Shown here: one piece after another, positions 6,766 through 51,996 of the stretch
Layout: every line of letters begins with the position of its first letter
Position numbering within the stretch: position 1 is the first letter of the stretch
The notes under the pieces: model-generated
Database searches by the model: none
What the model was told of the DNA's origin: nothing
The model's input: the letters and a program-made list of their open reading frames with translations, nothing else
Origin: Pohlia nutans
Lineage: Eukaryota > Streptophyta > Bryopsida > Bryales > Mniaceae
NCBI GenBank assembly: GCA_022496805.1
Contig: CM040085.1
Location: forward strand, 51,944,234 to 52,008,233
Length of the DNA: 64,000 nt
Reading direction: 5' to 3'
Made by a program: the position numbers and the translations under genes

Positions 6766-6955
6766 TAGACGGCCTCCCGTCATGTGGACGGGAGGGTCGT
6801 CATGTGGACGGGAGGGTCGTCATGTGGACGGGAGGGTCGTCATGTGGACGGGCGGATCGTCATGTGGACGGGCGGGACGTAATGTGGACGCGCGGAACGA
6901 GGGCGGCTACCGTGCGAGCGGTGGATGGGAGAGCGGAGAGCGGAGAGCGGAGAAT
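6766..6955. repeat. 20-bp tandem GTGGACGGGAGGGTCGTCAT and GAGAGCG run
   Basis: From about 6777 a 20-bp unit with core CATGTGGACGGGAGGGTCGT repeats about five to six times, becoming less exact to 6900. After a GC-rich spacer, AGAGCGG repeats every 7 bp at about 6927-6953. A related block in the opposite orientation lies at 24,095-24,200, where CTCTCCG repeats are followed by CGCGCGGAACG and ATGTGGACGGG. The element context is discussed in the findings. Confidence 0.75.
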
Positions 6956-6997
6956 TGTCAGATTTTTTACTAAAAATAACATAATATTTGAATATTC

Positions 6998-7060
6998 TCT
7001 GACAGATTCGAATATTCACTGACAGATTCGAACATTCTCTGACAGATTCGAATATTCCAT
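6998..7060. repeat. Short tandem CTGACAGATTCGAATATT, about 3 copies
   Basis: The unit TCTGACAGATTCGAATAT occurs three times with single-base changes between 6998 and 7060. It lies between the GAGAGCG run and the hairpin at 7088-7142. No coding potential. Confidence 0.65.
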
Positions 7061-7087
7061 AGGTAAATTCTCGTCGAAAACTGTGTT

Positions 7088-7142
7088 TTTACCACAGTAA
7101 AAATTAAAATGCAGTCATTTATGATATTTTTACTGTGGTAAA
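7088..7142. repeat. Perfect 17-bp inverted repeat around TTTACCACAGTAAAAAT
   Basis: TTTACCACAGTAAAAAT (7088-7104) and its exact reverse complement (7126-7142) are separated by 21 bp. TTTTACCACGGTAAA at 23,901-23,915 is a related short palindrome near the other end of the MULE/methyltransferase-like region. This may be a subterminal transposase-binding motif; that is an inference. Confidence 0.7.
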
Positions 7143-7409
7143 GTTGAATATCCTGGGCGAAAACATCATTTACACAGGTGAGAAACAAACTTTTCACATG
7201 CATCTCTTTATTAAAAGTTGAAGTACACATTGACCAATAGACCGGCCGTAGACGCCTCTTCCACGTCTCCCTCGCATTTTTTATGGTAAGTGCCTTATAG
7301 TTGCATCACTCGCAATACAGTTGCATACAGCCAAAAACCCTAGATTAACTTGTGAGTTGTGACTATTAATAAGCAGCTATAAATAACATCTATAAACTAC
7401 ATAAATGGC

Positions 7410-10400
7410 CTATGATTTAGGGTAGGTCAATATTCCACTTTCGAGAAGGAGCTTAATTTCGTTGAAGCTGAAAGTTGGGGCATGCATGAAAAGGTCAACT
7501 TTCGGATCACGTTTGCACGCATTTATGAACACGTAATAAACGTGCTTGCAGTAGCTAAAATACCCACCTTTCTTGCCAAACTTGACCATAGTTTGTTTGA
7601 ATGCAGGACACGTGCACGCGGGTTCTGAGCTCACTGTAATTTGGTATTGTGTCACAGTAGGTGGAGTTCCAGAGTCCAGAGCAATGATGCACCCATAGCC
7701 TGGGTGTGGTACCATCATAACACTGTGGATTCTTGCCTTTAAAATCTTGGAGGATTCAATGCTGAGACACTGCTTGGAGGTGGGAACGTTGGCTTGACGG
7801 CGAACATTCTTCGACTTCCGCTTTCTAGGATACCGGTCCGCATCACATGGCACTGGGATAGCGGACATATCTGAAGGGAGAGGTGCATTGGAGAATAGCC
7901 TCCTAGGAGACACTTGAACTTTTTGTGGGAGCTGAAATCCTGCAGCTTTGAGCGCTTGAATCTCCTTGAGCTTGAGGTTCGTTCCCAGCTTCACGGGCCA
8001 CACATCAGGAATTGGCGGCCTTCGTTCCGTGGGCAAAAAGTGCCTCACCCACTTACGTCGAGTGCCCTTCACGCACCTCTCGATGTCATCAGGGCAAAAG
8101 AAGAATTGTTCGGTTATCTCCCTGCCCAACTTCACGTTCAGCCATTCACCAGTGTATGTTGGAGCGGGGGTGTTAGTCGAATTCCGGACAATTCTGGCAT
8201 CGCACTTCTTCTTAGTTATTGCTCTCATTGCCCAACACGACTTGGCACTTTTTTTGGACAGCCGAGCAATGTGCCAAAGTCGCTCGTTCACAGTGGATTC
8301 TTGTACCGCGGTAACATGTTGAATACCACCTTCCAGGACAGGTGGTGAGGATGGAATCACAGGGGATATTGAAATCTCCGTGAGTGATGCGATGATCTCT
8401 GAAGCTTCAAATTCTTTCTCCTCGGCTATTGCTGGTAGAGAGGCTACCCTAGAGAGAGCAGCCCGTTTTGATGCCCGGGGACGAGAGTAGTTCACTGTAT
8501 CCGGCCGATGGGACTCACCGTCATCTCCAAGCGGCAGGTCCGGCTTTCGCTTGGTTGAGCCAAAAACCTCCACTCCTTCCAAGTGAGGATCACGAATGCA
8601 AAACTCATCAGCTCCGGGCATATCCAGCATTGCCTCCTTAAGAACTCTAGGATCACCCGTGTTTTGGGCTCGTCGTTGTGCATGTCTTAGCTTAAGTTCG
8701 TTCTTGCTGGGACCGGATATTCCAACGTCTCCCTTTAGGAATTGGTAGTATGCCACTACCTGCATAAACGCGCGAATGTAGTCGTCGACAGTGGCAACGT
8801 AGAGGTCATTACCTCTGTTGCCAGACGCTTGAAGCCATTTGTTGTGCACTGTCTCGGCAAGGTTGCAGGACGGCATGTCCACTAAGGCCTCTTCGTTAAG
8901 GTTCTGAAGAAGTCCATGAAAAGGCGTGTCACTAAACAATATTAGAAAGCACGGCGCTGGAAAGAGATAGTAAGAGCAACGTATACTCACCAGCAGCATG
9001 AAGCCACCCCATTGTCGGTATCGGAAGTGCCAGAAGGCTAGCCACAAATCCAAGTGTCGCAACGATGACTCTGATGCAGCTCCAGAAGACACCCACCAAG
9101 CCTTGATAGCTAGGTATCTCGTATCCGCCTCAGCCATGGTTGTGGAATCCCTATACTGCATGCAAAGGCGCTTGTGTTGTTCTCGAAATTCTTCGGCGAT
9201 GTATTGCTTGTTATGCTTCTCGAAGGATTGAGACCAATGAAAGAAACATGACCTCTCCCGATCCACCATTGGATCTTTTGGATTTCCATTTCCGTAAATG
9301 ATCCTTAGTGCATTCCAATTGGCTTGTGCACTATCCGCCATGAATCCCATGAATTGTCGGTTGGGAATGTCATGTCTCTCCATGACAGCATTCAAGTTTT
9401 TCCAGAAGACAATCTGAGCATCTGTGTCTTCCGATTGCATGTCACAGCATGCAATGGTCATGACACGACAATACGTAGAGTCGTAAACATGGCAACCCAT
9501 TGTAGTCCAATGTTTAACGCGTTTAACATGGTCAAACATGATCCAGCAGTTCTCAAGGTCTCCTCCCGTTTGCATCCTCTTGACCAAATCCACACCACTA
9601 CCCGGACCCATCTCGGACATTTTGAAAATGAAGACCTTGTCAGAATCCTCACCTTGTCCAGGGAACATGTTCTTTTGGACTAATGTCCAATTACTGAGTC
9701 CTCTAAGTTTGGTGATACTATCCATGACACCATACCTCCTAAGGTATCTGAAAGTGACAACTTTATTTCTTATGCTGGGAGAGCCCATGTCCTTGAACCT
9801 GTCAAGAACCGGCACGAGATCTTCCAAACTAAGAGTTTTGGGTGGTTCGTCTTCACTGCGTAAAAGATACTCACCTAGGAGTTCTTTGCTGGCCTCAAGA
9901 ATGACTGCACTCTTGGTAGCTGATGGTGTTCTCTCCATTTGCTCCTCGATGACAGTGTTGATCTTCGTCTTGGTATTGCGGTAGTCTCCAACCTTCACCG
10001 GGTGCTTGTGATGTCCAAGATGAATGCAAGCCCTTGTGACGTTCGGCCCACCATGCACATAGTATATTTTTGCGCTACATGTGTTCACGCAAGTAGGAGG
10101 CTCCTTGCAGACTTTGCAGACCAAAGTAGAGTCCTTTGGAGGTGATCCGTCCACGATGAATGGCTTCCACGTACAGCCTTCAAACTCCGTATCATTCAAC
10201 GGGGAGGTGCGGTGGGCACGCTTCAAATACTCACACTCCTTGTTGCGACACTCCAAATGGCCAACACAGACCGAAAATCGGAACGACAAGCCAAATGGAT
10301 TAGAAACATTAGTTGTCATAGTTCTAGTCCACACATGGCCATCGTACCTCTTATCCATTCCATACATATTTTTTGCGTTTGTATGAAATGTGTAATTTGT

Positions 10401-11195
10401 GACAGCAGGAAACTCGTACACTACGTCACCATCAAATCTGGGAGGAAGATGTTCCACCTTGATTGTTGTGATCCTGGCGTAATCAAGTTTCTTGAGCACG
10501 TTATTCTTTCCAGGTATGGTAGCTAGTTTCTTCAGCTTAGGTAAGATACTCGCAACGGTGAGTGTCTTGGCAGACAATGAGGGACATGGACTCTCATTGA
10601 GGTTGATCGATTCAAAACTAGGAGTGGCCGATTCAAGAGTATGAGCGGCATATGTCTTTGAGGACGGAGAATGAAGAGTTTGAATAGGAGGACGTTCAAT
10701 GACCGTGTCTGAATCAGACGAATTGCTAGAGAGAGCAATGTACGAAGTTGATTCAGACTCAAGCTTAACGGAAGAGGATGATCCATGCAGGGGAATGAAT
10801 TCCACGGCTGGATCATGCTCGACCTTGACATTTCTAAGAAGAGGAGTCTGTATTGGACATGTGGGGGATGGATATGGTCTACAATAGCCCTTTGCTACAC
10901 GCATACCGTAGACATCATACTTTCCAGGCTCAAGCTTCCACACTCGACTTTGATCCGGGCTCTCGTGTGGCTGTTGAATAACGGTGTGAGATGGAGACGA
11001 TTTGTTAGAATCGTCAAAGATGTTCTTCTCGACATATAGACTCGATTCGTCAAAATCAAATCGCATACAAAGATGTTTACAAGACACAACAGCGATCCCC
11101 TCTTCATTCACTGGGAATGAGAGAGGAGTATTAGAGCCATAAGCTGAAAGCACCGCAGTCCCTAAAGAAAGCTCAGAAGCAGCAGTGGATGCCAT
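7410..11195 (-). CDS. Mutator-like (MULE) transposase with SWIM zinc finger
   Basis: Start chosen at ATG 11195 (MASTAASELSLG), because the longer frame begins at a non-ATG codon. The product is about 1261 residues. Residues about 270-400 form a Cys/His-rich region (HLECRNKEC, CKVCKEPPTC, CIHLGHHKHP) like the WRKY-GCM1/FLYWCH-type fingers of MULEs. The MULE core follows: YDSTYCRVMTIA near 570 and GFMADSAQANW near 620 carry candidate catalytic Asp residues, with CFFHW near 650. I could not fix the third acidic residue. A C-terminal SWIM finger, CTCPAF to YCKHVYYVF, lies at about 1195-1225. The transposase cuts and moves its element. It is divergent from, and about 500 bp from, the gene starting at 11698. 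The frame reads through a probable 87-nt intron (8904-8990). No stop or frameshift was seen, so this copy may be functional. Confidence 0.85.
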   Translation of the reverse strand: MASTAASELSLGTAVLSAYGSNTPLSFPVNEEGIAVVSCKHLCMRFDFDESSLYVEKNIFDDSNKSSPSHTVIQQPHESPDQSRVWKLEPGKYDVYGMRVAKGYCRPYPSPTCPIQTPLLRNVKVEHDPAVEFIPLHGSSSSVKLESESTSYIALSSNSSDSDTVIERPPIQTLHSPSSKTYAAHTLESATPSFESINLNESPCPSLSAKTLTVASILPKLKKLATIPGKNNVLKKLDYARITTIKVEHLPPRFDGDVVYEFPAVTNYTFHTNAKNMYGMDKRYDGHVWTRTMTTNVSNPFGLSFRFSVCVGHLECRNKECEYLKRAHRTSPLNDTEFEGCTWKPFIVDGSPPKDSTLVCKVCKEPPTCVNTCSAKIYYVHGGPNVTRACIHLGHHKHPVKVGDYRNTKTKINTVIEEQMERTPSATKSAVILEASKELLGEYLLRSEDEPPKTLSLEDLVPVLDRFKDMGSPSIRNKVVTFRYLRRYGVMDSITKLRGLSNWTLVQKNMFPGQGEDSDKVFIFKMSEMGPGSGVDLVKRMQTGGDLENCWIMFDHVKRVKHWTTMGCHVYDSTYCRVMTIACCDMQSEDTDAQIVFWKNLNAVMERHDIPNRQFMGFMADSAQANWNALRIIYGNGNPKDPMVDRERSCFFHWSQSFEKHNKQYIAEEFREQHKRLCMQYRDSTTMAEADTRYLAIKAWWVSSGAASESSLRHLDLWLAFWHFRYRQWGGFMLLVSIRCSYYLFPAPCFLILFSDTPFHGLLQNLNEEALVDMPSCNLAETVHNKWLQASGNRGNDLYVATVDDYIRAFMQVVAYYQFLKGDVGISGPSKNELKLRHAQRRAQNTGDPRVLKEAMLDMPGADEFCIRDPHLEGVEVFGSTKRKPDLPLGDDGESHRPDTVNYSRPRASKRAALSRVASLPAIAEEKEFEASEIIASLTEISISPVIPSSPPVLEGGIQHVTAVQESTVNERLWHIARLSKKSAKSCWAMRAITKKKCDARIVRNSTNTPAPTYTGEWLNVKLGREITEQFFFCPDDIERCVKGTRRKWVRHFLPTERRPPIPDVWPVKLGTNLKLKEIQALKAAGFQLPQKVQVSPRRLFSNAPLPSDMSAIPVPCDADRYPRKRKSKNVRRQANVPTSKQCLSIESSKILKARIHSVMMVPHPGYGCIIALDSGTPPTVTQYQITVSSEPACTCPAFKQTMVKFGKKGGYFSYCKHVYYVFINACKRDPKVDLFMHAPTFSFNEIKLLLESGILTYPKS
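8904..8990 (-). other. Probable 87-nt intron inside the transposase, in frame
   Basis: On the minus strand CTGCTG is followed by GTGAGTATAC and the segment ends TTCTTCAG before AACCTTAACG. The 29 encoded residues (starting VSIRCSYYLF) do not resemble the flanking protein. The broken paralogue at 22-23 kb has a 97-nt GT-AG segment at exactly the same protein position and in the same phase, which supports a real intron. Here it happens to be a multiple of three without stops, so retention would still give a full-length protein. Confidence 0.75.
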
Positions 11196-11697
11196 ATCAA
11201 ACAAGATCTACAATGAAGAAGACGAGGATTGTTCAGACTAGAAGGTAATCACTATATGTAACCGCATTCAGGATGGTAGGATGATGTTAGCAATGACTGC
11301 ATTGAGAAAATATCTTGATGAATGCGGTCATCATTGACACAATCATTATAGTTCAAACACCAAAAAAAGGATGCAGCCGAAATTCTCAGCCCGCCAAGTG
11401 CAATGCAATGTAATCGAGGAAAAGATTGATTAGGACAAGGGGTGATATATAGAATTCGCCGATTTTTTTGAAATTAGACTTCTAGATCTTTTTGAAATAT
11501 GTCAGTATTGTATAATAATGGCATAGTGATAAACATGAGTACATCGGGATTAGCACTATCAACAATCTTGTGGAATTTTTTGATTCCCAGAGTTGAGTAT
11601 ATATCCAATGCATAACTAAACAAAAACAATGTGTAGAAATGATGCGTGATATTGAGTTTGAGAGAATGAGAGAGGAATAGATTGTTGTAGGGTACAC
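11196..11697. promoter_or_regulatory. Putative bidirectional promoter
   Basis: About 500 bp lie between the divergent transposase (minus) and the plus-strand exon at 11698. A TATA-like GATATATAGAATTC is at about 11443 for the plus direction. On the minus strand the sequence just before the transposase start ends in TTCATTGTAG, which could be the acceptor of a 5' UTR intron. No coding sequence was recognised. Confidence 0.4.
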
Positions 11698-12153
11698 ATG
11701 AAGGAAGGGGCACCATCTAAGATCGTGATACCAAAGAAGAAGAGGAGACTTGGTCAGACAAACTTTAGCGGCACCAAGGCTAAACGAAGGAAGGAAGCTA
11801 GGAGGAGGTTGTTGCATGAGAGTTTGCTTCCAGGTACTCCTAGAAAGCAACCTCAGGTAGATGCTGACGACGGAGGATTGAAGAGTAGAAAACATTGTAG
11901 CATCAACAAACTAACGCTAGATTCAATTGACAAGGGAATTGAAAAGGACCAAGAGTGCAAAGGATTAGAAGAAACATTGCCTTCTGACAGGACAGATCCA
12001 ATGTCTAATCAGCAGCAAAGGAAGAGGCAGAGCGATCGTTGCACTCGTTCAAATATGAACGTTCGGTCCTGGCTAGACAGCAGTTACGATGAGGGTCATT
12101 TCAAGATTGCAGATGACGATTTCAACATTGACAGTGCTTGCCTCCTAAATAAG
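11698..12153 (+). CDS. Basic, nuclear-signal-rich exon; possible first exon of the ParB-methyltransferase gene
   Basis: ATG at 11698 opens 152 codons that end, in phase 0, at a strong donor AAG|GTAAGG (12151-12156). If unspliced, the frame stops four codons later. The product is very basic at the start (PKKKRRLGQ, KAKRRKEARRRLL), like nuclear localisation signals, and acidic near the end. The next good acceptor in matching phase is at 15207-15208 (CTCTCATCAG|ATGGCA), so this may be the 5' exon of the gene at 15.2-21.9 kb, giving about 1338 residues in all. The alternative is a separate small gene. The exon is likely; the join is inferred. Confidence 0.5.
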
Positions 12154-15100
12154 GTAAGGAAATAGAGTTGCAAATTGTCACATGTTTCAAGTATTTTGCA
12201 GAGCATAGCTCTATTCCAATTACGTAAGAATTTGAATAATTTGCCTTCCTACAATAATGTGTGCTTGGAATCCCTAATTCCAAACTTCAAGTTTTGCTCA
12301 GCTAGTGACACGTATAACAGATCTAATAATTTCCGTTTGAGCCACATAGTATAATTGATATTTGGAAAGTTTAGACTAACTGTCAATTTACTAAAGTAAA
12401 GGACCTACTTCAAATTGCATCTGCATAAGTCTATTGTGAGATTGAATAAGCGTGCTCATGTAATTATCGTGCTCATTGTATATTCACATCGCATAATTTC
12501 ATTACTATAGCTTGAATGTCCAAAATATCGTCAGACTTTTATTATTTGACTATGCAGTGATGGCAACGTGCTAAATGTCCATATATAAATTTCTTCATAT
12601 CTTTTTGGACAAAGTTTATATACATTTGCAATGGAATAAACTTAGAGATTGATTGTAATTAGAATTGATTGCAAATTCATTGGGCATTCTTTAAAAAGTC
12701 TTTGCAGTTGATTGCAACGGGCTTAACCCTTTCATGTGCCACTAGAGTTAACCGAAAAGAAGGTCATGGAACCTCCCTTATCAACCTTCTATTAAGCGCT
12801 CTTTTGAGCTCCCTTGAGCTATGTTTGGGTTGAATAGTGTCGTGTCATAACTTGTCCCCTTGTGGGCCATGGGCTTGGAGCTTTGGTAGGAAGTGTGGAA
12901 GTCATTGCGAGGTGTGGAGAATAATGACACTGGCTTGCTTTAGATTGTCTCCCAACTCACCTTGAACTAGTTTTCGGTCTATTTATATTTCAATATGAGT
13001 CCAAATTAGACAACCTTTGGCCACCAAAATTTCTCTTAGTTCTTAAGCAAGTTGACTATCCTTTGTACCGTTTGGATCTTCAAAAAGTTTATTATGATTT
13101 TTGGAATAACAACAAAATTGGTTTATGTCAAGTTTCATTCTTAGTTCAGAAAGTGAAACATTAAATATGATATTTGAAAATAAGTAGAATCAAATAATGG
13201 AAATAATACCATCTCGTAGTGCATGTTTTTTCAATGGCAAGAGGGGGTTGTACCCTAATGCAAGGCCATGTCTTCTCTTCTCCTCGTCGCTCCCTTGCTG
13301 CTCCACGTCGCCGCTCTGCTGCGACCCCTCGCCGCCCTGTCGCTCCCCGTCGCTGCCTTGTTGGTCCCCGTTGCCGTACTCCCATCGCGATCCATCTTAC
13401 TTGTCATTCTCGGTGAATCCATACACAACATTTTTTCTTCATTTTTTCATTTTTCAAATAGCTCATAGGCAGCGTGAAAACAAAGGATCGTTTGGTTAGA
13501 TTTTAGATCATGGTTTACGGTGTTGATGGAACAGAGATCGGGAGCTAAGGAACTGTCTGCGTATGGAACTGGTGGTGACAATGACCGTGGGTGAGCAGAT
13601 TGATAGTTTGATTCAATGCGCAATCGTTTTGTATCCGGAACTATACGAGAGAGAGTGAATGACAACATTTGTCACGTCGCATTGACGATTGAAGTAGTTA
13701 AAGGAACTGTGCTCTAGCATCAGTTGATCATACTGTGCATGTTTTTTACAAATCCCACGCTCATGTGCAAACAGACAGCCCGCCCCTTTGGATTCAAGGG
13801 CACAGAGCTTTTTACACATACAAAGGTAGAGAGGAATTGGAGGAGGCAGGCCATTGAGTTGTCTCTATTACTTACCAGCGAGTGAGTTGCTGCATGTCTT
13901 TTGCGCATTGGGAGTCGCGATAGAATTAGAAATTTATTAGCCCATTTGTTTTTCTCGTTTCGATTTGCCTCCCTCACTGCTATCCGTGCCTTTTCTTTCT
14001 TCCGGTTAAGTCTCAGTACAGTACAGTACCCCCTCCCCAATGCTCACTACAAACACTCACTCACGCGACAAAGCAGGCGCGCGCTTAGGATTTGAATCGT
14101 GTTATTCGAGACCTTCGTGTTCATTCTCCAGGACAGCATGTTTTAGTGATGATGGGTTGAGTTACTCGTTGCTGTTCCTCTTCCTCAAGTAGAATCCGGA
14201 ACGTTTTATTTTATGTCGAATTGCAGGGATTCATACAGCTTTCGTCACTTGATTGCTTTTTGTTTCTGTTCAAGGGTTTTACGTGTTGTGGGTTTGTGAA
14301 GGAATTTGGTAATTTCATTGCAGCTGAATGTCTTTTGTTTATAGTTTAGCTGAGTACTGTTTAAATCTTTCAAAATATAGCACTTAGTCTAGAATTGTTT
14401 TTTAGTACTATCTTCATACATTGGTATGAATTAAAATAAGGCGCCTCTATCAGAGGGAGTCTGATCGCATTAGAACACGGTCATTTCATTTGATTGCGCT
14501 TATGGATGATCAATAAATCGAGAAATTCCTTTTTTTTATCGATGTGCGAAATCAATTTGGACATGATTGAAATTCATTTGCTGCTTACTAGACTACTAGT
14601 GCATCACTCAATGGTGGTGCTCCTAATCGAGTGCGATTGATGTGAGCCAGTCAAGTTTATATTTGAAGGTAGAAGCTGCACGATGGTAAAATGTCAAGGC
14701 CATGGCCATCCTGATAAGTTGTGCAAACTCTTTTTGTTAATTTACACAATGAACTGTGTTGAAGGAGCCATTAATGTTACTTTCATTCAGTTCAAGCAAC
14801 CGCTGGTAACTAAATGTTTAGACTAAATTTTGAATGATACATTGACTTAGCTATATAACAAGGGTGACATTTGCTATCTGTGCCACGTGATAGAACCACC
14901 CCAACAAACTCTTCATTCCTGCTGGTCTCTGCACCAGTTCCGCAGACAGTTCCTTTCGCAGGTTTACCAAGGATCGGGAGCTACTTTACTTTGTCATTGA
15001 TATCGTGTGTGTATCTCAAAAATCTGTGCACAATTTGAATGTACAAGTTGTTGCTAGCAGGCTTCAGGAGAATGTTGAGAATAACTCTTACTATGTAGGA

Positions 15101-15208
15101 AATCACGCATAGAGCACTTGAAATTCTAGCAGCTAATTGACCTTTTGATCCGAAAGAGATAAGAAACTATGTTGTTCTAATTGGCTATTGGACTTATCCT
15201 CTCATCAG
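12154..15208 (+). other. Noncoding, probable long intron or intergenic region
   Basis: About 3 kb, mostly AT-rich, with no convincing coding sequence. A C/T-rich GC-richer patch at about 13,262-13,400 gives open frames of low-complexity Ser/Pro/Arg/Leu only. The region holds the inverted-repeat pair at 13,536-13,575 and 14,932-14,981. It could be the intron joining the exon at 11,698 to that at 15,209, or it could contain the promoter of the latter. Confidence 0.4.
13536..14981. repeat. Inverted repeat pair 1.36 kb apart
   Basis: The left arm (13,536-13,575) contains GATCGGGAGC, AAGGAACTGTCTGCG and GGAACTGGTG. The right arm (14,932-14,981) contains their reverse complements, CACCAGTTCC, CGCAGACAGTTCCTT and GATCGGGAGC's counterpart in shifted spacing. 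Similarity is partial, with a small insertion in the right arm. These may be the degenerate ends of a nonautonomous DNA transposon. No target duplication was identified. Confidence 0.45.
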
Positions 15209-18200
15209 ATGGCAAAATTGAATGATTGTACGGAGGGAGGTCCCAGCCAGGACGAGGTGACTGCGTGTGATCTGCAGAGCAACCATGGTCATTTCGAATG
15301 TGCAGATGCAGCAGCTGCGGAATCGGAGGCAGTGTCGGACAGAGCGAGTGATGAACGCGAAGACGAGCCTGAGCAAGGAGACATGGAGGCTGAGGACGAA
15401 GAATTGGAGCTGGGATCATCTGATTCCTTGAACGCCACTCAAGACAACGAAGTCCAGGTATGGGTCTTGCCAATGGAATTGGTGAGAACATACTATGCAT
15501 TATCACTTCTCCAAATGAGTTGTGGCACTTGAAATGGACACCTTTTAGAGTCTCCCTTGAAACATGTAGAAGTAGATTCAAGTGTATGTGAATTAAACCT
15601 TGACATTAAGATTTTGAGTTTGGACTGGGATACAATAGACTCACAATGAAAGTAAAACATGTAATGACAATGAAGGCCAAGAATATCACTGTATTAGCTA
15701 GGAACAGAATTCTAACAAATTATGTGATACCAAAGGTAGTGCCTTGGATTGGTGTGTATTGATTTGACTTAAGAATGATGCCTTAAATAAAAAAGATTGA
15801 ACATCACATTGAAGTTCTCAATTGTTTTGAATTAGGTAGGGAGGCAAAGAGGCACTCGTATACGAGTGTCTCTACAAGTGTGACTTGTTTCAATCATTAA
15901 GTGCTTTTCTAATTTAAAAAACATGACTCTAGAAGGTGCATTGGATTGGTTTGATAGAGGCAAAGGGGCACTCGTATACGAGTGCCTCTACAAGTGTGAC
16001 TTGATTCAATCATTAAATGCTTTTCTAACTTAAAAAACATGACTCTAGAAGGTGCATTGGATTGGTTTGATAGAGGCGAAGAGGCACTCGTATACGAGTG
16101 CCTCTACAAGTGTGACTTGTTTCAATCATTAAGTGCTTTTCTAACTTAAAAAACATGACTCTAGAAGGTGCATTGGATTGATTTGATAGAGGCAAAGAGG
16201 CACTCGTATACGAGTGCCTCTACAAGTGTGACTTGATTCAATCATTAAGTGCTTTTCTAACTTAAAAAACATGACTCTAGAAGGTGTATTGGACTGGTTT
16301 GATAGAGGCAAAGAGGCACTCGTATACGAGTGCCTCTACAAGTGTGACTTGATTCAATCATTAAGTGATTTTCTAATTTAAGAAACATGACTCTAGAAGG
16401 TGCATTGGATTGGTTTGATAGAGGCGAAGAGGCACTCGTATACGAGTGCCTCTACAAGTGTGACTTGATTCAATCATTAAGTGATTTTCTAATTTAAGAA
16501 ACATGACTCTAGAAGGTGCATTGGATTGGTTTGATAGAGGCGAAGAGGCACTCGTATACGAGTGCCTCTACAAGTGTGACTTGATTCAATCATTAAGTGC
16601 TTTTCTAATTTAAAAAACATGACTCTAGAAGGTGCATTGGATTGGTTTGATAGTGGCAAAGAGGCACTCGTATACGAGTGCCTCTTCAAGTGTGACTTGT
16701 TTCAATCATTAAGTGCTTTTTCAATTTAAAAAAAATGATTCCAAAATGGTGCCTTGGATTGGTTTTATAGAGGCAAAGTGGCACTCGTATATGAGTCCCT
16801 TTAGAAGTGTGACTTGTTTGAATGACAAATTGATTTTTTAATTTAAACAAATTGACTGCAATCATACTTGGGAGATAGAATATTAAACAATTCATCTTGT
16901 TTGTTTAAAAATCGGATCATGATAAGTACATTCTATACCAAATATTGAATTTTGGACTGGGTAAGGAATAAATCAAATAGAATTTGATAATTTTGATAAT
17001 CGTGTGGCCTTGTAGATTTGTTTACCCTAACTATGAATTCATTTTTTTTAATGATCGTCAAATGTGATTATTTTTCTTTTCAGGGTGATGGCTCTGTACC
17101 TGTAGCTGCATCCACTCAGGTGATTGACTTGAGTGATGTGGAGAGTGTCGAGGAGAAGTTCTGCACATGATATCAGATTGATCCATTTGCGTTCTCGTCC
17201 TTGAGAATGCAACAGCCTAGTAATCAGATTGCAATTTCTCCTCCTTCAGTTACTATGCTTGAGTCGCCTCCGTTTGTGCCAACTTCTCCCCAGGGTTTCC
17301 TCCTACGGTTGACTTCATTCCTACCTCTCCTCCGGATATGCCTTCGGCCGAGGACTACGTGTCGACGTCACCTCCACCTCCGCTCCTATCTCCGGTGTTG
17401 ATGATCGTCCGTGCATTGCCGGCGATTCATGGGCGCCTTAGTACTGCACGACTTCGCCGTCGTAGTCGTAGTAGAGATCATTCAGAGATGACACGTAGAT
17501 CCTACATGCGTAGGCTGCGCAATCACCGCTTTGCATAGATTCAAAGACTTTGGTCTATTCATTCCATCTTTCAATGTGGATCTATTATCTATGCTACTTT
17601 CCTACTTGTGCCATGCAATTGTGCAATTTTGTTTAATCACTTCTGTTTATGAAGGTTGATCAACTGGATTCCATAGACGAGGACGATGAGCTATTGAGCA
17701 AATGTCCTGATAATATCACCACTCCTGCTGAGAGTGAGATGGAGCACCGCAGGTCGCTGAAGGTTGATCACAACGGCCTTATTGAATCTCTGCGATTGAG
17801 TCCAAGGAAGAAATCTCGGCTTCAAGTGCCATTGTGCAGGATGATTGTTATGGACGAAGTCAGAGCTGTTGGAGAGGTGGATGTTCAAAGACTGGAGAGC
17901 GAGTTCGTAAATGGATATCGTGACGGCGACCGGGTCTTGTACATCTCCGTGTACAACAGCCACGAAGAGTCATGTGAGTTGACGGACGACACGATTGGAA
18001 CGTGGAGTCCTCATTGGCAGCAAGTCAATGCTGAGTTTGAGCTCGAACTTGAAGCAGATGCTGATTTGGCCCCACTCCGTCGGAAGATGTTCTATGTTTG
18101 GGACGGCAACCACCGCGTAACAGCATGGACCAGGCACATCACCAACTGCCATGCGAACGAGCTAAAGTGGCATTACAGGGTCGAGTCAATTTTCCTTGAT

Positions 18201-21200
18201 CCCAGAGGATCAGTAGCGCGCTTGCTTAACGCAATGGGGGATGTCAATTGGTTTGTCCCTTATTTGAACTCTGTGAATTTATATGCATTACATTGGAATT
18301 CATGCAACATTCATTTGTATCGTTACTTATCTTGCTAATGTTGTTTAGGTCCACGGAGAATGACCACGTGAAGAGCACCATCCCTGCTCGACTTCGACAA
18401 ATGCGGACATTCGGTGTGCTCCCCTTGTCTGCATTCAAGGATCTCATCACCAAGCAGGAGTTTGTGCACTGTGAGCGGATGAAGCCAAAGTCAAATACTT
18501 GGTATTCTCTCACTATCGACATCTTCATCAGCTTTTTATTCAAGGTAACTATCATCATATATGAAAAATGCACATTGAATTAACTTATCTATACCATAGT
18601 TAGATTTCTCATATTCATTTCTATTTGTATTGTAGCATGAGTTAGCGCTTGTCGCTGACGATGCTGCACGAGAATACACAAAGAAGACCATTCCAGAAGA
18701 GAGGACCGCAACTGGAGTCTGGGATGCAATGAAGATTGCGGTAGATGCCAGAGTGAAGTTGATCCGATCATGTGACTTCGAAAAATATCTTGCCTCTGCA
18801 AATCCCAAGAATGGGGATGATTGGATGAAAGAGGTGTGATTTTGATCTTTACCTATTCAATGGAAAAACCTTGCTTTAACTTTTAGATTTGCTGAAATCT
18901 TGTCTCACGCAGATTGATCGCCATTTTAGTGAGAATGCAACACCGGAGATGACGATCGATAAGCTTCAAAGACTTGGTGTCTCTATCGTTGAGCCAAAAT
19001 TCAAGGCGAGGTGGCTTTGTTGGTGGAACACATCAGACGAAGCTAGACGAGCATATCGCTTCCCATTGCCCAAGGACAAGGACTACAAGGATCCAAAGGC
19101 ATTCGAACATTGGATTCACAAGGCTGCGTTCTGGGCTGAGGTACACATTATCTCCACTTTGCCCAGTTACATGCTATCTAACTTGGATTCCTTTGAATTG
19201 TATTACTAACTTTGCTTGCTCATTGCAACAATTGGAGGAGGCTGTTGTTAACATGGTTGGACAGATTCTTACGGACGAGCATATTACCGTGGACTGGTCT
19301 GTTCCTGGAGTCCGTAGACCAGGTGATTATGTTGAAAGCTGGCGAATCCTCCTATGGGAAAAAGCATTTCCTATGTTCATTGGATCCAAGGACAATAGGC
19401 AGTATTGGAAAAAGGCTGTATTCAAGGAGTTCCCTGGATGTGCCGAAGTCGTGAAGCGCGTTGTCTACAAGTTCGTGTTCTATTTTGATGTTTTTCATTG
19501 TTATGTTCAATTTATGCAAGTTTATAAAAATGCATTATCAGTGCGTCATGGAAATTGCTGCTAACTCGAGTGCTCTGAATTGTAGGTACTTTGTACGAAT
19601 GCTTCTTGCAAATGAGGTAATCCATAAAGATTGCCTTCCTCCGTACTTCCATTCGTGGATTCAGAAGGAATCCGACCTTGTGATGTACACCGCAGAGCAG
19701 CTCAAGAAATACAAGCAGGCACATCTCCAGTCAGGATGCTGGTATTTAGATTGCAGAGGAAACTTTACACCTTCCGTGGAACAAGCAGAGAGAACCAAGC
19801 ATGACGGTGGAGTGCTTGTGGCAGTTGATATTGAAGAAGAGGAGACAGAGGAAGCAACGCCCCCATTGAAGAAGAAGCGCGAGACGAGGAAGGAGAAGGC
19901 GGCCAGGGAGAAGCTAGAGAAAGAGCAACTGGCATTGGCTGAGAAGGAGACAGCAGAGAAGGAGAGGGCTGCAAAGGAGGCGGCTGAGAAGGAGAGGGTT
20001 GAGAAGGAGAGAGCTGAGACAGAAATTGTGGCCAGGCAAGAGGAGGCGACTAGACAAGAGGCGGCCAAAGAGGAGTCGGACGAGGATGACGACGATTCCG
20101 AACCACCGTCAGAGCAAGGCCAAGGTGATTGCGTTACACCCCAAGCTCCAGATTCTTCCATCTCTAATGTCTATCATGCAACGGCTCGACAATTGCGAAA
20201 GAAGAAGCGCGATCAATTTCCCTCTGCTAGCTCTTCCATCTTTGATCAGCAATCGATAGAGGTGTATGTTGAGTGCACTTCATTTTCTGCACTAGCGGAC
20301 GCCGCTCAAGGAACTCAAGGCACTGATCCTAGGTGGCTGAGGCTACACGAAACCATTGCCAAGGTATTCTTATTCTCCCCGCAACTCAAGCTTGTTTGCA
20401 TGTGAATCAATTCTTACATTGCTCAATTGTCTCACTTGTGAGTTTGATGACTCAATCTTTGCAGGCTCAAGCTGGACGAGATCGTACTGTTGTCTCCGAA
20501 CATTGTATCAAATACAAGCACACCGGTATTGATTTGATCATTGCAGATATCCCAAAGAATCTGCCAGTCCCGGGAATCTCCACTTCTGTTCCTGAGTGGA
20601 ACAAGCGTGCCAAGAGTTATACCGAGGATGTGTTCGAGATGGCGGACGCATATCTTCACGACGACGGAGCTCTTGTCCTCATCCACTGTGACGACCGTGC
20701 TTTGATGAGGGAGATCGAAGATAAGGCTCACCAGTACGACATGAAGCTATTGAAGGACTGGTGGGGAATCAATGAAATGCACCTTGCATTGCCCCGTGAT
20801 CCTTCAATGACGGTATCTACTAATTCAACTCAATTCTATGTTTCCTTGTACTATCACTTATTGCAATATTTGGAATGTCATAGTGTTGTTGAATCTTGGT
20901 TGCATCGCAAACTAATATTTGAAATACATCTCTCGCTCACATTGTTCACTATTTTGTGTGTACTTCGTTTGATCTTGCAGTCTGTAAGGTTTTGGATCCA
21001 ACTATTTGTACGGCGAGAGGTTCAATCAAAATTCTCTTTCACCGCTAACCGTGGTAAGAACTACATGGGTGATCATGTTGAAAAGAGTGACGCTCTCTTT
21101 AACGTCACAGACGATGACATGACTATGAACGGGAGTGTTCCTTGGAGAGGTGCTCGTGAGAAGAATCAGCCTTTCTTCCATCTGCTAATTCAGCAGTTTT

Positions 21201-21886
21201 GCAAGGCTGGGGATGTCGTTCTCGATTGCAAGGCCGCTACAGGTATGCTCCAATGACTTGAATCATAGTTTGAGCTACATTTTTGTAACGTATTCCATCA
21301 TCTAAGTCTAAGATTTTGCATTTTGTCCCATTGACAGGTACATCCATCAAGGCATGCTTAGCTCTCGGTCGTCACATTCTGGCATTGGAGGATGATCGAC
21401 AGATTTTTGTAGAGCTCATTGCACCACTGCGACTACCTAAAGCAAACGACCTTATAGGAAAGGGCAGGGTCAGCACTCCTCCATCAAATCCGGCGCCTGC
21501 TAAGAAACCGAAGAGGCAGAGACTAACAACCAATTGTGCGTAAGTTGTATCGCTCAAGCATGTTTCCAAATTTGATATTGTACAATCATTTGCACTTTAC
21601 AATATTTCTAAACCGAATTCTGATTTGTTTCAATTTTGTTCTCTTGAACAGTGGGGTGAGAATTATTGCGTCAAATCGTGATCGGTATTTGAGTCCTCCT
21701 CCAACTTTCACGCTGCCTGAGTACGTGGCCGCGATTGCCCAGGCGTACGCTACAGCCTCTCCACCTCCATACCGTCGCAAGCGACAATATGTTCAAGGAG
21801 TGCGTGCATTTGTGGATGACGAGGCAGTCCAAGGAGAGGATGATTTTAACTCCTCTAGTGAGGGTAGCTCTGGTAATAGATATTAA
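15209..21886 (+). CDS. ParB/Srx-like domain plus permuted beta-type DNA methyltransferase-like protein, 12 exons
   Basis: Exons read by eye: 15209-15457, 17084-17119, 17655-18250, 18349-18544, 18636-18833, 18913-19140, 19238-19470, 19586-20363, 20465-20812, 20981-21242, 21338-21539, 21652-21886. All have GT-AG borders and compatible phases (3561 nt, 1186 residues). Residues about 125-250 end in FYVWDGNHRVTAW, the DGNHR signature of ParB/sulfiredoxin-like domains. Exon 8 encodes a long Glu/Lys/Ala coiled coil and an acidic stretch. Exons 9-11 resemble a beta-group amino-methyltransferase: LIIADIP stands where DPPY (motif IV) is expected, then YLHDDGALVLIH, then KNQPFFHLLIQQF, then the AdoMet motif GDVVLDCKAATGTS and LGRHILALEDD. 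ParB fused to N4/N6 DNA methylase is known in bacteria and phages. Both signature motifs are altered, so activity is doubtful. Exons 1-2 are least certain. Confidence 0.7.
15728..16870. repeat. 116-bp tandem repeat with long perfect palindrome, about 9 units
   Basis: The core GGCACTCGTATACGAGTGCC starts at 15851, 15967, 16083, 16199, 16315, 16431, 16547 and 16663, a constant 116-bp period, and in degenerate form at 16780. In most units the palindrome extends to 26 bp with flanking AGA and TCT. The rest of each unit holds CATGACTCTAGAAGGTGC and a TTGATTCAATCATTAAGTG-like part. A degenerate unit start is visible from about 15728. The array lies in the intron between exons 1 and 2 of the ParB-methyltransferase-like gene. 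Confidence 0.9.
17120..17540 (+). other. Proline-rich coding-like remnant inside an intron
   Basis: After the possible donor at 17119 the frame continues as VIDLSDVESVEEKFCT and meets TGA at about 17168-17170. Proline/serine-rich coding-like sequence follows (SPPSVTMLESPP, then in another frame TSPPPPLLSPV, then RRRSRSRDHSEMTRRSYMRR) and ends at 17538. The style resembles the C-terminal exon of the gene itself (SPPPYRRKRQYV). It may be a leftover of a duplicated 3' end or a broken exon. Confidence 0.3.
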
Positions 21887-22161
21887 GCTTTATATTCAAT
21901 ATATACGCATTTGTTGAATTATAATTATTATGTTTCCACTTTTGATTTTTATTTATGCAATGTTTATGCATTGGAACCGAAAGGTTCTAATCCTTTTACA
22001 TATATGCATAGGCTCGTGACGACCCTTGGATGCAATTTATATCAATTGGATCTACAAACACGGCACTACTACTATCTCTTTTAGAGCCCATATCCAATGC
22101 TCATCAAAGTCATTGCTTGCTCTCGATGATTGTCTTTCAAATAGGACTCGTACTCAACTGA
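21887..22161. other. Short spacer between convergent genes
   Basis: AT-rich sequence between the end of the plus-strand gene (TAA at 21884-21886) and the end of the minus-strand transposase remnant (stop at 22162-22164). It presumably contains both 3' ends. No further feature seen. Confidence 0.4.
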
Positions 22162-23313
22162 CTACTTTACTGAGCGCATCATGTCGTCTATTGTAGCAAC
22201 GTACAAACACGTCCCTCTACTCTGTGACATCCGCTGCCAGTAGCTGTGTACAGTCTCGCCTAGGTTGCATAAAAGAGTGTCCGCAATCTGCTCTGTCGTT
22301 AGATCCTGGAAGCCACATACCAAATGTTGAATGAGTAAGACAACAAAGTAGTAATTCGGATTCGTAAGATAACATATTTATGAATAGGCAATCAACTCTC
22401 ACAAGCTCATAGAATCCACCCCATTGACGGAATCTGAAGTGCCAAAATCCGAGCCAATCATCCAGCTCTCGCAGTCCATCTTCAGTGGCAGCTCCTGAGG
22501 ACAGCCACCTGTCTCTAGTGCAATGGTAGAACTCTTCAGCCTCCCACGGGGTCTTCGCTTCTTTGAAATTCGTACAGAGTCTCTTATGCATTTCTCGGAG
22601 GTCTGGCCGGATGTGCTCCACTGCGTATCGCTCCAAAGAGCCGGTCCAATCAACTTCATTGTACCTTTCTCTACCAACCATCTTCCTATTGGGATTTCCA
22701 TTCCCGTACACAATCCTCACCGCCATCCAGTTCGCATCATCCCCATCTGCTACAAATCCCTTGAAGTAAGGGTTCGGAACTCCATTTCGTTCCATCACGT
22801 TGTTGAGAGCCAACCACATGAGCTTCTGTGAATCGACATCATCGCTCAAGATCTCGCATGTGGCTATTGTCATCAGGTGACACATTTCTGAATCATAAAC
22901 GTAGCAAGACATAGTTGTCCAACCTCTTACTCGGTTGAGGTGGTCAAACATGATCCAACGTTTGTGTAGGTCCTACCCGGTTGCATGCGCGTCACAAGAT
23001 CAACGCCGCTGCCAGGTCCATCTTCTGACATCTTGAATATGTAATACCGTCCAGTTCCAAATCCGAATTTGTCGCTCAATTGAATGAAGGCGTATGGACA
23101 CTCAATCCTCAATTGTTCGACCATGTCAAGTGATCCTCTCTCTTCACTAACGGTTGAATCCAATCTAGTTGCGTCCCATCTGTATCGAGAATGGAACATA
23201 CTGATGTGCTCAATCATAGCAAGATACATCTGTGATCGAGATGGTACTATTGATCCTATTCCATGTGCCGTACCAACCTCAATGGAGGATTCGCCCGTGA
23301 AGCTTGTATCCAT
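22162..23313 (-). pseudogene. Second MULE transposase copy, truncated and frameshifted
   Basis: This is homologous to the middle of the transposase at 7.4-11.2 kb. IFKMSEDGPGSGVDLVTRM matches IFKMSEMGPGSGVDLVKRM; then come MFDHLNRVRGWTTM, YVYDSEMCHLMTIAT, GFVADGDDANW and FWHFRFRQWGGF. A single-base frameshift near 22,967 separates the first 110 or so residues (ATG 23313) from the core. A 97-nt GT-AG intron (22306-22402) matches the in-frame intron of the first copy. After splicing the frame reads DLTTEQIADTLLCNLGETV and stops at 22162. The N-terminal zinc-finger part and the SWIM finger are absent. The CFFHW motif of the other copy is replaced by NEVDW. It is probably inactive and lies tail to tail with the ParB-methyltransferase-like gene. 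Confidence 0.8.
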
Positions 23314-23651
23314 TTCTCTACAACGACAAACTAGACACTCAATACACAAAATTGTGGGCGACGCTACTACGAGAGATAAGCGGACACACAATATAGATGA
23401 GCGTTGTAAATAGCAACATATATATTACGCATCATCATCTGTCCGTAGTAGTCAAACACAAAGTCTTCGAAGTCAATTTTGGTGCACAACTTTTTTAGTC
23501 ATGTCCATCATTACTAGACTTCCATGAGTCAAAATAGGTCTATTCTTATATTGGCATCACTGATTCGGCTGGATTCAAAGTCAGTGACAATACGATCTAA
23601 TTAAAAAATGCGGACGGACTAAGTGCAAGCCGTCAATTCATTTCTATTTTT
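23314..23651. other. AT-rich spacer
   Basis: Sequence upstream of the transposase remnant on the minus strand. It may include eroded 5' transposase sequence, but I cannot align it by eye. No other gene seen. Confidence 0.35.
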
Positions 23652-23872
23652 GGTCACGAGACTCCCTGGGACTGTCTCTGTGCTAGGTCCCGGGACTGCC
23701 CGGGAGAGCCTAAGGGCTATTCCCGTGCTTGGTCCCGGGACTGCCCCGAACAGCCCAGGAGCTATCTTGGTGCTTGGTCCCGAGACTGCCCAAATCAGCC
23801 CAGGGACTGTTCCATTGATTGGTCCCGGGACTGCCCGGGACAATCCATGGCCAATCCCGGTGTTTAGTATAG
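23652..23872. repeat. 45-bp tandem repeat containing GGTCCCGGGACTGCCC
   Basis: GGTCCCGGGACTGCCC, or a close variant, begins at 23686, 23731, 23776 and 23821, a constant 45-bp period. A partial unit starts at 23652 (GGTCACGAGACTCCC). The unit centre CCCGGG is palindromic. Open frames through it translate to Pro/Gly/Thr repeats and are not taken as genes. Confidence 0.85.
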
Positions 23873-23894
23873 AGACTCACCGGCGCTAATACTA

Positions 23895-24235
23895 AGACAG
23901 TTTTACCACGGTAAATTTTCTGAAATGTGACAAAAATAGACATTTATCGTGCATAAACTATTATTGGAAAGTCACCATGTGGTAAAACTATTTTTAGGAG
24001 AGTAAAAACCTAAATTTAGATGAATTTTTTCCTAATTTTACCTAACCAAGTAAATAAATTGTTCGAAATTTCCTCTGTAAAAGTGAAATTTCTACTCTCC
24101 GCTCTCCGCTCTCTGCTCTCCGCTCTCCTATCCAAGGCTCGCGTACGAGCTTTCCCCCGCGCGGAACGTTATGTGGACGGGCGTGATAACATGTCGACGG
24201 GTGTGATTTCACGTGGCGGGACAGTCTTGGGTTGC
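23895..24235. repeat. Inverted relative of the 6.8-7.15 kb block
   Basis: In reverse orientation this segment carries, in the same order as 6.8-7.15 kb, GTGGACGGG words (24,173-24,215), CGCGCGG (about 24,158), a GAGAGCG run (complement CTCTCCG at 24,095-24,128), and a TTTTACCACGGTAAA palindrome (23,901-23,915). The GGATGGGAGAGCGG of the left block matches GGATAGGAGAGCGG here. The two blocks flank the MULE and ParB-methyltransferase-like genes. Confidence 0.55.
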
Positions 24236-29334: not shown

Positions 29335-30110
29335 TAACATTAGGGCAATATGACAATTTCACAATTGGTCAATAATAGTTATATTACAATATGACATTAT
29401 GACAATTCATTAATTTGACAATATGAAAATTCAAGAACTAGACAATATGACAATATGATATGGGGACTATAAATCTAGAACAATAGGAGTATATGACAAT
29501 ATGTGTCAATATGACAATATGGCAATGTGGCAATATGACAATATGGCAATGTGACAATATGACAATATGACAATATGACAATATGGCAATGTGGCAATAT
29601 GACAATATGACAATATGACAATATGACAATATGGCAATGTGGCAATCTGACAATATGACAATATGGCAATGTGGCAATATAACAATATGAGAATATGACA
29701 ATGTGTCAAGTAGTCAATATGAGTATATGACAATATGGCAATATGACATTATGACAACATGACAATATCGTAAAGTGACTATGAGTCTATGACAATAGGA
29801 CAATAGAACAATAGGACAATGGGACAATATGACAATATGACAATATGAAAATATGACAGTACGATAATATGACATTATGACAATATTGTCATATTAAAAA
29901 CATGACAATATGATAATAGAACAATGGGACAGTAGTACATTAAGACATTCGGACTAGAACCATAGGACAATAGAACAATAAAACAATAGGACAATGGAAG
30001 AATATCACAGTAAGACAATATGATGATATGACGATGTGGCGATGTGACAATATGCCAATACTAACAATTTGACTATTGGGCATGACGACAATATGGCGGT
30101 ATGATAATAC
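29335..30110. repeat. (TGACAATA)-type microsatellite, about 0.77 kb
   Basis: Runs of ATGACAATATGACAAT with 9-bp spacing, most regular at 29,500-29,700, decaying on both sides. Because the period is a multiple of three, long spurious frames (HIVILSYCHIA repeats) appear on the minus strand. They are rejected as genes. Confidence 0.9.
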
Positions 30111-33520: not shown

Positions 33521-33754
33521 AGGCTCTCGAGGCTTTTGCCAACACCTTTCCTTGGTGTGCTCTGGTCTTCCGACCTGGTTGGTGTACAGCCATTGCGTTA
33601 GAACGGAGCCTAGGAAGAGTGGGTTGGAGGAGCACAGGCTGTTACACCAACAAGTGTTTTGCCCCAACCGCACTACATTCAGAATACTAATTGTGTGTTC
33701 CCTTGTGTTTTCTTGTGGGATGTGTGGGGCTGTGGGCTATAGTTAATAGAGGCA

Positions 33755-46540: not shown

Positions 46541-46798
46541 TATTGAGGTAATTGATGCAACGTAGTATTGCTAGAAGCCAAAGACGTACGGGTGCTAAAT
46601 AATGGTGTGTGGGAGGAGGGGTTAGGCATGGGCTGATCTCTAGAGTGTCCTTGTGATGAGTTATCCCATATGGTTTGTCCATGGTGACCTCCTAGTGTAC
46701 ACTACTTAAGGTGGAAGGCCTTTGAGTAAAGATCATCTCTTTCTACGCATTCCTTGTGTTTGTGTGTGTGCCTTGTGCAATCTTCTCTACCTTCAATA
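46541..46798 (+). repeat. Copia 5' LTR
   Basis: 258 bp, TATTGAGG to CTTCAATA, with no difference from the 3' LTR seen by eye. The region GTGTACACTACTTAAGG contains no classical TATA box. The downstream gypsy frame runs a few codons into it by chance. Confidence 0.93.
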
Positions 46799-46812
46799 GG
46801 TTATGGGCCCAC
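46799..46812 (+). other. Copia primer-binding site, half-tRNA(iMet) type
   Basis: GGTTATGGGCCCAC directly follows the 5' LTR. It is complementary to the anticodon arm of plant initiator tRNA-Met (GTGGGCCCATAACC), not to its 3' CCA end. Priming by an internally cut initiator tRNA is known from Drosophila copia. Confidence 0.8.
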
Positions 46813-47617
46813 TCATGTGTGTTTCATGAGTATTAGATTGCATTTGTGCAAGTATTTTGAGGTCGGTGCGCAACGGGCGGTTTTGGAGCATTGTTGGAGG
46901 TTTTGGAGCTTGTTGAAGCGTTGGTGTTTCTTGGAGGTGTGCATGGGCTGAAGTTACATGTTGGAGCACTCTCTTTGGTCAATTTCTTCCCTTGATCTCC
47001 TTCTTTTCTTTCTTCTATCTCTTCGTTGCGAGTGGAACTTCGTTTGGTTCAATTGTGAGCATTTGAGTAAATGCAAGTGATTTGTGAGGTGTGAAGACTC
47101 TCGTGGAGGGTCTACCATCTGATCCTAGTGATTAGGCACTTGCTTTGAGGTGTTGCATGTGTTTCATGCTCTTGGGGTGCTCAAATTTTCATTTGGAGCT
47201 AGTTTGTGCACAAAGGTGCGGTTTTGAGCAATTTCAATGCGATTGGGGTTTTGAGGGACTTGTGTGAGTTCATGTGCATTGAGTGAGTGCTCTTGAAGGA
47301 CACAAAGGTGTCATTGACGTGCATTGAGTGTTTGGGGACACTAAGGCGTCGTATTGAAGCATTTGGAGTTGTTTTGAGCTCCATTGAGTGATTTGAGGGG
47401 TTTTGGTGAGCCTCTTTGCATTTTTGGGTGAGGGTTCTCACATTTGAGTGTTGGGAGGCGTGTGTGGAGCACAAAAGTGCTGATCTAGTGTTTGGGGTTG
47501 TTTTAAACCCATTGGGTGCACAAAGGTGCAATATCAAAGCAAAAAATCACAAAAACAAAGTTGTGTGTTTGAGTTTGAGGTTTCATTTGTGTGGGGAGGC
47601 ATACGTAAGTGAGGATC
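46813..47617 (+). other. Copia untranslated leader
   Basis: About 800 bp between the primer-binding site and the first ATG of the polyprotein. It is rich in T/G runs with repeated TTTTGAG and GTGCATTGAGTG words. No coding sequence supported. Confidence 0.6.
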
Positions 47618-51763: not shown

Positions 51764-51996
51764 TATTGCTAGAAGCCAAAGACGTACGGGTGCTAAATAA
51801 TGGTGTGTGGGAGGAGGGGTTAGGCATGGGCTGATCTCTAGAGTGTCCTTGTGATGAGTTATCCCATATGGTTTGTCCATGGTGACCTCCTAGTGTACAC
51901 TACTTAAGGTGGAAGGCCTTTGAGTAAAGATCATCTCTTTCTACGCATTCCTTGTGTTTGTGTGTGTGCCTTGTGCAATCTTCTCTACCTTCAATA
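51739..51996 (+). repeat. Copia 3' LTR
   Basis: 258 bp identical by eye to the 5' LTR, followed by the TTTAC target duplication and the resumed gypsy A frame. Confidence 0.93.

Follow-up and report, generated by a model that had tools for sequence, protein, structure and literature searches.

A gene with a phage-type methyltransferase-derived domain and altered catalytic motifs in a mobile element of the moss Pohlia nutans

What does a gene with a ParB-like motif followed by a permuted DNA methyltransferase domain do in a moss genome, and does it belong to the host or to a mobile element? The question is raised by a 64,000-nucleotide stretch of Pohlia nutans DNA (NCBI GenBank assembly GCA_022496805.1, contig CM040085.1, positions 51,944,234 to 52,008,233, forward strand), hereafter the window, in whose own coordinates all positions are given. 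A first-pass annotation of its letters had described, at 15209-21886, a fusion of a ParB/sulfiredoxin-like domain with a methyltransferase fold. The sequence comparisons reported here indicate that the C-terminal domain is of methyltransferase ancestry, that the gene resides in a mobile element, that the domain no longer has its catalytic aromatic residue or the first glycine in the S-adenosylmethionine (AdoMet) loop, and that the altered motifs are conserved. The best explanation, which we hold tentatively, is that this is an accessory gene of a Mutator-like transposon of about 17 kb, and that it would encode a phage-derived, probably non-methylating DNA-binding protein, perhaps with an anti-silencing role like that of VANC in the VANDAL transposons of Arabidopsis.

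A spliced gene with a methyltransferase-derived domain

The gene occupies 15209-21886 on the + strand and has 12 exons and 11 GT-AG introns, which give a protein of 1186 amino acids, free of stops until its end. Its parts are as follows.

15209-15457, + strand: exon 1 of the gene with the ParB motif and the methyltransferase-like domain, uncertain (splice model)
17084-17119, + strand: exon 2, uncertain (splice model)
17655-18250, + strand: exon 3, N-terminal domain with the ParB Box II-like motif (splice model, profile comparison)
18102-18128, + strand: DGNHRVTAW motif (sequence and translation)
18349-18544, + strand: exon 4, middle region (splice model, second family member)
18636-18833, + strand: exon 5, middle region (splice model, second family member)
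18913-19140, + strand: exon 6, middle region (splice model, second family member)
19238-19470, + strand: exon 7, middle region (splice model, second family member)
19586-20363, + strand: exon 8, end of the middle region and charged repetitive linker (splice model, repeat analysis)
20465-20812, + strand: exon 9, motif IV half of the methyltransferase, DIPK, the other copies that were read having E in place of K (Pfam, profile comparison, copies)
20546-20557, + strand: motif IV residues DIPK (translation, copies)
20981-21242, + strand: exon 10, with the region of motif X and the beginning of motif I, DCKAAT (Pfam, profile comparison, copies)
21338-21539, + strand: exon 11, end of motif I and acidic residue of motif II (splice model, alignment of relatives)
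21652-21886, + strand: exon 12, C-terminal tail (splice model)

The frame used is open in every exon, and each of the two remaining forward frames is interrupted by a stop at least once per exon. All ten of exons 3-12 were present in seven of the 10 near-identical genomic copies compared, and exon 3, together with exons 9-11 and their intron places, was retained in diverged copies. The single spliced frame proposed at first pass is thus upheld by the frame test, by the genomic copies and by introns shared with a second family member (see below), and on this sequence evidence the gene is real as a spliced unit, with the exception that exons 1 and 2 are uncertain and have no homologue backing them. 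Translation may alternatively start at the ATG at 17649, directly before exon 3, which would give 1093 amino acids. The DGNHRVTAW motif lies where it had been placed, as does DIPK upstream of LDCKAATGTS (21221-21242 and from 21338 on). The coiled coil described between them has to be given up: the linker is a charged five-residue repeat, with 23 of 57 identities at period 5 versus 8 of 55 at period 7. One relative (P0004) lacks this repeat.

When the C-terminal domain alone was compared with Pfam N6_N4_Mtase (PF01555), it scored 27.6 bits, above the cut-off of 26.7, and the whole protein scored 23.6 bits (E 5.8e-5), below it. Five methyltransferase-named families of PHROGs matched at E < 0.01, and tblastn against phages returned 150 records at E up to 1, nine of which cover at least 80% of the query; among the phage matches listed, 16 of 20 are annotated as methylase or methyltransferase. 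Comparison with a profile of 12 phage methyltransferases gave a score of 55.8 (probability 94.3, E 1e-7), compared to a maximum of 27.6 for 200 column-permuted control profiles, and the 178-column alignment runs in the permuted order, with motif IV before X, I and II. Further, at least 49 viral loci in IMG/VR encode relatives of the domain. These loci were found by two patterns, the first containing D[ILP]P of motif IV, the second G or A at the motif I place, so that these letters are partly built into the set and the motif IV tyrosine is not. In a FastTree analysis of 58 sequences, from whose alignment two fetched ParB-methylase proteins (L006 and L007) were left out, the domain joined eight D-I-P-Y proteins encoded by phages and viral contigs with a local support of 0.907; since its branch has a length of 3.0, and with local support of only 0.096 at the next node up, this placement is tentative. 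The Pfam score, the permuted controls and the phage and viral relatives bear out the permuted N4/N6 methyltransferase domain seen at first pass, and by sequence it is descended from a phage-type beta-class N6/N4 amino-methyltransferase. It shares with the phage enzymes of the D-I-P-Y subtype of PF01555 (e.g., that of Streptococcus phage Javan457) the motif order IV, X, I, II, the context 'IIADIP.NL' and the grouping in the tree. It differs from them in that the tyrosine has given way to E or K, the first G of motif I to A and the H of the HPTxKP stretch is gone, and in being intron-bearing and embedded in a protein of 1186 residues.

The N-terminal part is less clear. The alignment of its profile with 14 phage ParB domains spans exactly ten columns, at Box II (E 0.017-0.032), and permuted profiles scored as high in 2 of 200, 1 of 400 and 7 of 300 cases, the last with 14 more copies added. 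The D, N and R of DGNHRxxA were identical in all 16 of the 18 sequences that cover the motif, and DGN[H/R]R was found in 11 of the 12 further copies covering it. There was no ParB match to the N-terminal domain in Pfam, NCBIfam or PDB sequences; a ParB-like family of PHROGs was reached only by the second family member (E 0.36). The predicted structure, with a predicted local distance difference test score (pLDDT) of 44.7, was too poor for a reading of the fold, structural comparisons gave no usable signal, and excising an insert from the domain made the ParB match no longer than before. The proposed ParB/sulfiredoxin domain is thus weakly supported, by a stretch of ten columns at Box II. Fusions of ParB with N6/N4 methyltransferases are frequent in phages according to the available part of one report (PMC12704722), which makes the ParB lead more plausible. 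As in those fusions, the motif here lies N-terminal to a permuted methyltransferase. Nine proteins that we fetched have a ParB match and a methylase or methyltransferase annotation, eight of them with a DPPY motif; the phage fusions are 369-501 residues long with a clear ParB domain, whereas about 550 unmatched residues separate the two parts here.

A protein search with residues 100-1120 found no relatives, a second search found four, including a sequence with 97% identity to the window, and a third found one, 99% identical to the unspliced frame of the window. For the N-terminal or middle region, at the sensitivity of the searches, a part of exon 3 had no relatives among phages and query A4 had none in IMG/VR or GTDB genomes; PDB sequences gave only unrelated weak matches. 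In one relative (P0003, on a 335-kb ENA contig), intron 3 is absent from the open frame and the motif reads DGNLR, possibly through intron loss or because it is a decayed copy.

The second family member lies in the window itself.

37835-40400, - strand: second family member, outside the element, truncated (exons match exons 3-8 of the main gene)

It is 37% identical to the main gene over 484 residues, and the two have five introns in common, all with equal phases: the alignment puts four of them in identical columns and the fifth 2 columns apart. Third codon positions are the most divergent (0.66 vs 0.43 and 0.40), and the proportions of nonsynonymous and synonymous differences (pN and pS) are 0.42 and 0.77, the comparison being saturated. 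The member carries one in-frame TGA (39827-39825), and its methyltransferase half is missing. It adjoins a hAT-like frame with a DUF659 match at 33743-34750, the continuation of which to 36334 is broken by stops.

The mobile element around the gene

Genomic copies showed the gene to lie within a larger element with the following parts.

6899-24157, no strand assigned: mobile element in its full length of 17,259 bp, with the 10-bp direct repeats CGCGCGGAAC on either side at 6889-6898 and 24158-24167 (homology limits, target-site duplications)
6899-6955, + strand: imperfect terminal inverted repeat at the left end (matches the right end at 52 of 64 aligned positions)
24100-24157, - strand: right terminal inverted repeat (shared right end, pairing with the left end)
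7413-11207, - strand: 1265-codon open frame, presumed transposase with SWIM-like C-terminus (open reading frame, weak SWIM match)
22135-23136, - strand: second, incomplete relative of the presumed transposase, split into three pieces that lie in different frames and are 44-52% identical to it (translated comparison)

A 251-base probe from exon 3 had 74 candidate places in the genome, 40 of which were scored, the window included; at least 15, on 11 contigs, were 94-100% identical, and at least 25 were 71-77% identical. Ten of the 14 other near-identical places were compared with the window. The right end at 24157 is common to ten copies (six exactly, one with a different last base and three with fewer short repeat units ahead of unchanged terminal letters), and beyond it each copy enters different DNA. 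Perfect 10-bp target-site duplications were present in five of the six copies that could be checked at both ends, the window among them, and the sixth had none. The terminal inverted repeats pair with a score of 53, compared to a maximum of 20 in 1000 random pairs. Searches for terminal repeats in ranges near the gene had found nothing; the ends lie further out and were found only via the genomic copies. Since the copies are near-identical, their insertions, and hence the activity of the transposon, are probably recent.

Mutator-like transposons have target-site duplications of 9-11 bp, terminal inverted repeats and a MULE-type DDE transposase. The 10-bp duplications, the inverted ends and the SWIM hint point to this group by its general features and without confirmation by a transposase profile: the SWIM finger in the presumed transposase scored 13.9 bits (E 0.041), below the cut-off of 19.6, and the 1265-codon frame matched no transposase profile. 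The part of it that is covered in four copies is stop-free in three.

These results bear directly on whose gene this is. A domesticated host gene might be expected from the long open frame and the conserved introns, but the dispersed near-identical copies, which include introns and array, the element ends and the target-site duplications make this next to negligible as an explanation. Of the first-pass suggestion that the gene was domesticated by transposons or travels with them, the second half therefore holds and the first does not, as the gene sits in a multi-copy mobile element.

The right end was sought elsewhere as well, where 40 of 243 candidate places were scored. For all 15 near-identical gene places, a right terminus of matching orientation follows 4.6-9 kb downstream, which by this measure puts them within the element, as would be expected if the protein were a partner of the transposase that binds or nicks the ends or the array through a ParB-like nuclease or nucleoside triphosphatase domain. 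The invariance of the motif residues D, N and R fits such a partner, and a ParB domain fused to a methylase is reported to nick DNA (PMC5512222, in the portion available). Among the matches listed, the right terminus also occurs at places for which no near-identical gene is listed (e.g., C4:27876843 and places on C7), possibly derivatives lacking the gene, a hint that some copies may move without it. We regard a role as transposase partner as rather unlikely.

The altered active site of the domain

Motif IV reads D[P/L/I]PY in 46 of the 49 viral loci, none of which was chosen for its tyrosine; the remaining loci are one with SPPY and two whose open frame, as read, does not include the motif IV stretch. 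Among the relatives in the alignment, 53 of 57 were kept for holding D[PLI]PY, so that the invariance of the tyrosine is built in there. The first glycine of motif I is G in all 52 relatives with a residue at that place. In the window copy, motif IV is DIPK and motif I is DCKAATG, and neither (D/N/S)xP(Y/F/W) nor DxxxGxG is present. The first-pass statement that DPPY and FxGxG are both altered is thus correct, with K or E for the tyrosine and A for G. Glutamate stood for the tyrosine in all nine other near-identical copies that could be read (one of them DILE), all nine with DCKAAT, and the lysine of DIPK is private to the window copy. Among six diverged copies fetched, the domain was found in five, all with glutamate at the tyrosine place (one DILE), the sixth (L101) having no methyltransferase match; DCKAATG was read in each of the four in which motif I is covered. 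The D and P of motif IV, the K of motif X, the D and second G of motif I and the acidic E of motif II are kept.

We then measured selection by comparing the diverged copies with each other and with the window, a copy with a stop in exon 9 (L105) included. Between subfamilies, the ratio of nonsynonymous to synonymous rates (dN/dS) in exons 9 and 10 was about 0.04-0.15 where synonymous changes were unsaturated. Two very close pairs had exon 9 ratios of 0.41 and 0.54, and one of these pairs reached 0.83 in exon 10; raised ratios of close pairs are expected after insertion. The presence of glutamate and DCKAAT in the diverged copies read, together with the low dN/dS, indicates that the altered motif had become fixed by the time the subfamilies diverged and has persisted since, and that the altered site is conserved under purifying selection and is not decaying. 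In the available text on N4CMT, an enzyme of bdelloid rotifers, the change of SPPY to APPA abolishes activity (PMC8885841). Given this loss and the conservation of the altered motif, a non-methylating role of the domain is likely. The proposal of 'a reader and not an enzyme' is accordingly favoured, by altered motifs under purifying selection.

Alternatively, the domain might have kept its amino-methyltransferase activity despite a non-canonical motif IV and mark the element's own DNA with N4-methylcytosine or N6-methyladenine. The retained positions of motifs IV, X, I and II and the strong purifying selection would fit this idea, and many phage relatives have L or I in place of the first P of DPPY. 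Against it stand the glutamate in all nine near-identical and all five diverged copies read, the A at a motif I position that is G in 52 of 52 relatives, and the inactivation of N4CMT, and we consider it improbable.

Palindromic array, neighbouring repeats and known systems

Upstream of exon 2 lies a further feature of the element.

15841-16847, + strand: 116-nt tandem array of 8.7 units with the 26-nt palindrome AGAGGCACTCGTATACGAGTGCCTCT, worn in some units (repeat and palindrome analysis)

The array lies in intron 1 or the 5' region of the gene, and its palindromes are the longest perfect ones in the window. The near-identical copies have from 5 to at least 56 units, counts that are lower bounds, with worn units uncounted and one array exceeding the stretch fetched; one interrupted copy with 1 unit was set aside. 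Copies L081, L089 and L093 are among those showing this variation. According to the part of a study of VANDAL elements that was available (PMC5735166), VANC binds motifs in tandem repeats of the non-coding parts of VANDAL, its own intron included, and the number of repeat units differs between copies. Prompted by this analogy, we guess that the palindromic array is a candidate target of the element's protein.

The accessory-gene explanation that we tentatively prefer can then be stated in full. The protein would carry an N-terminal domain with a ParB-like nucleotide-binding motif, then a middle region for which no relatives are known, the charged linker and the methyltransferase-derived domain. 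It would have stopped methylating and would still bind DNA, perhaps with AdoMet as a ligand; it would recognise the element's own DNA, perhaps at the 5' palindromic array; and perhaps it would shield the activity of the element from silencing in the way VANC does for VANDAL, a last step drawn by analogy. In a more specific version, a phage ParB-methyltransferase-like protein has become the element's means of recognising itself: the non-methylating protein would load on the array as on a parS-like array of palindromes and protect or reactivate the element, with array length tuning the strength. This we think doubtful at best.

Several results weigh against this explanation. ParB is a good lead, supported weakly and at the level of the motif. 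In 220 array units, there were no compensatory changes compared to 164 one-sided ones, and although divergence was lower in the palindrome than elsewhere in the unit (2.9% vs 5.5%), this difference comes from non-independent units. Conservation of the palindrome in the window copy had a p of 0.004 with all eight units and of 0.39 without the worn last unit. In the dN/dS comparisons of exons 9 and 10, many dS values exceeded 1 and 4 of 25 comparisons were saturated. Near-identical copies compared with the window gave a pN/pS of 0.73 over nine copies, copy j, in which nine of ten exons are missing, being excluded from the pool. Finally, copies decay after insertion: exons 3-12 are disrupted by a stop or a frameshift, or are partly missing, in eight of the 10 near-identical copies. 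Such decay would suit a passenger gene with no function for the element, but the dN/dS of about 0.04-0.15 between subfamilies and the introns conserved in a relative of 37% identity argue otherwise, making a passenger very improbable.

Other repeats occupy the rest of the window. Two identical 258-nt direct repeats, 5198 nt apart, surround a 1384-codon frame (47609-51760) at 46541-51996, probably a young long terminal repeat (LTR) retrotransposon, and a sequence 99.7% identical to it lies inside one interrupted copy (L073) of the 17-kb element. A 289-nt direct repeat, 99% identical, stands at 53363-53651 and 63712-64000, 10.3 kb apart; the frames between have what we take to be the look of a gypsy-type polyprotein, making this a second candidate LTR element. 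At 29381-29900 there is an array of 8-nt units with 51 register copies.

Three known systems are close to the one proposed here, each compared from the available part of its source. Like VANDAL with VANC, the element carries an accessory gene and, in non-coding parts, tandem repeats of variable number, for VANC in its own intron and here in the first intron or 5' region (PMC5735166); for VANC the text at hand describes no methyltransferase descent, whereas the gene here is methyltransferase-derived. Like retrotransposons carrying DNMT3 or Dam-like enzymes in charophytes, dinoflagellates and DIRS elements (PMC5890265), it is a selfish element with a methyltransferase gene, but it is a DNA transposon, with another class of methyltransferase and an altered active site. 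N4CMT, too, is eukaryotic and intron-bearing, with a PF01555 domain that came from bacteria or phages, but it is a host gene with an intact SPPY, active and joined to a chromodomain (PMC8885841). In the open-licence literature, no paper was found that joins a Mutator-like transposon, a methyltransferase and ParB, or ParB, charophyte and DNA methyltransferase, and a search for eukaryotic ParB with N6_N4_Mtase yielded prokaryote work only.

Selfish elements with DNA-modification genes are a known theme, of which the cases in the available text are the retrotransposons with DNMT3 or Dam-like enzymes (PMC5890265). If true, the explanation preferred here would show how a transposon converted a methylating enzyme, through a catalytic motif that was changed and then conserved, into something else. 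It would make testable how transposons withstand silencing and stay active, and whether the same tandem-repeat targeting has been reached by a protein that is not related to VANC.

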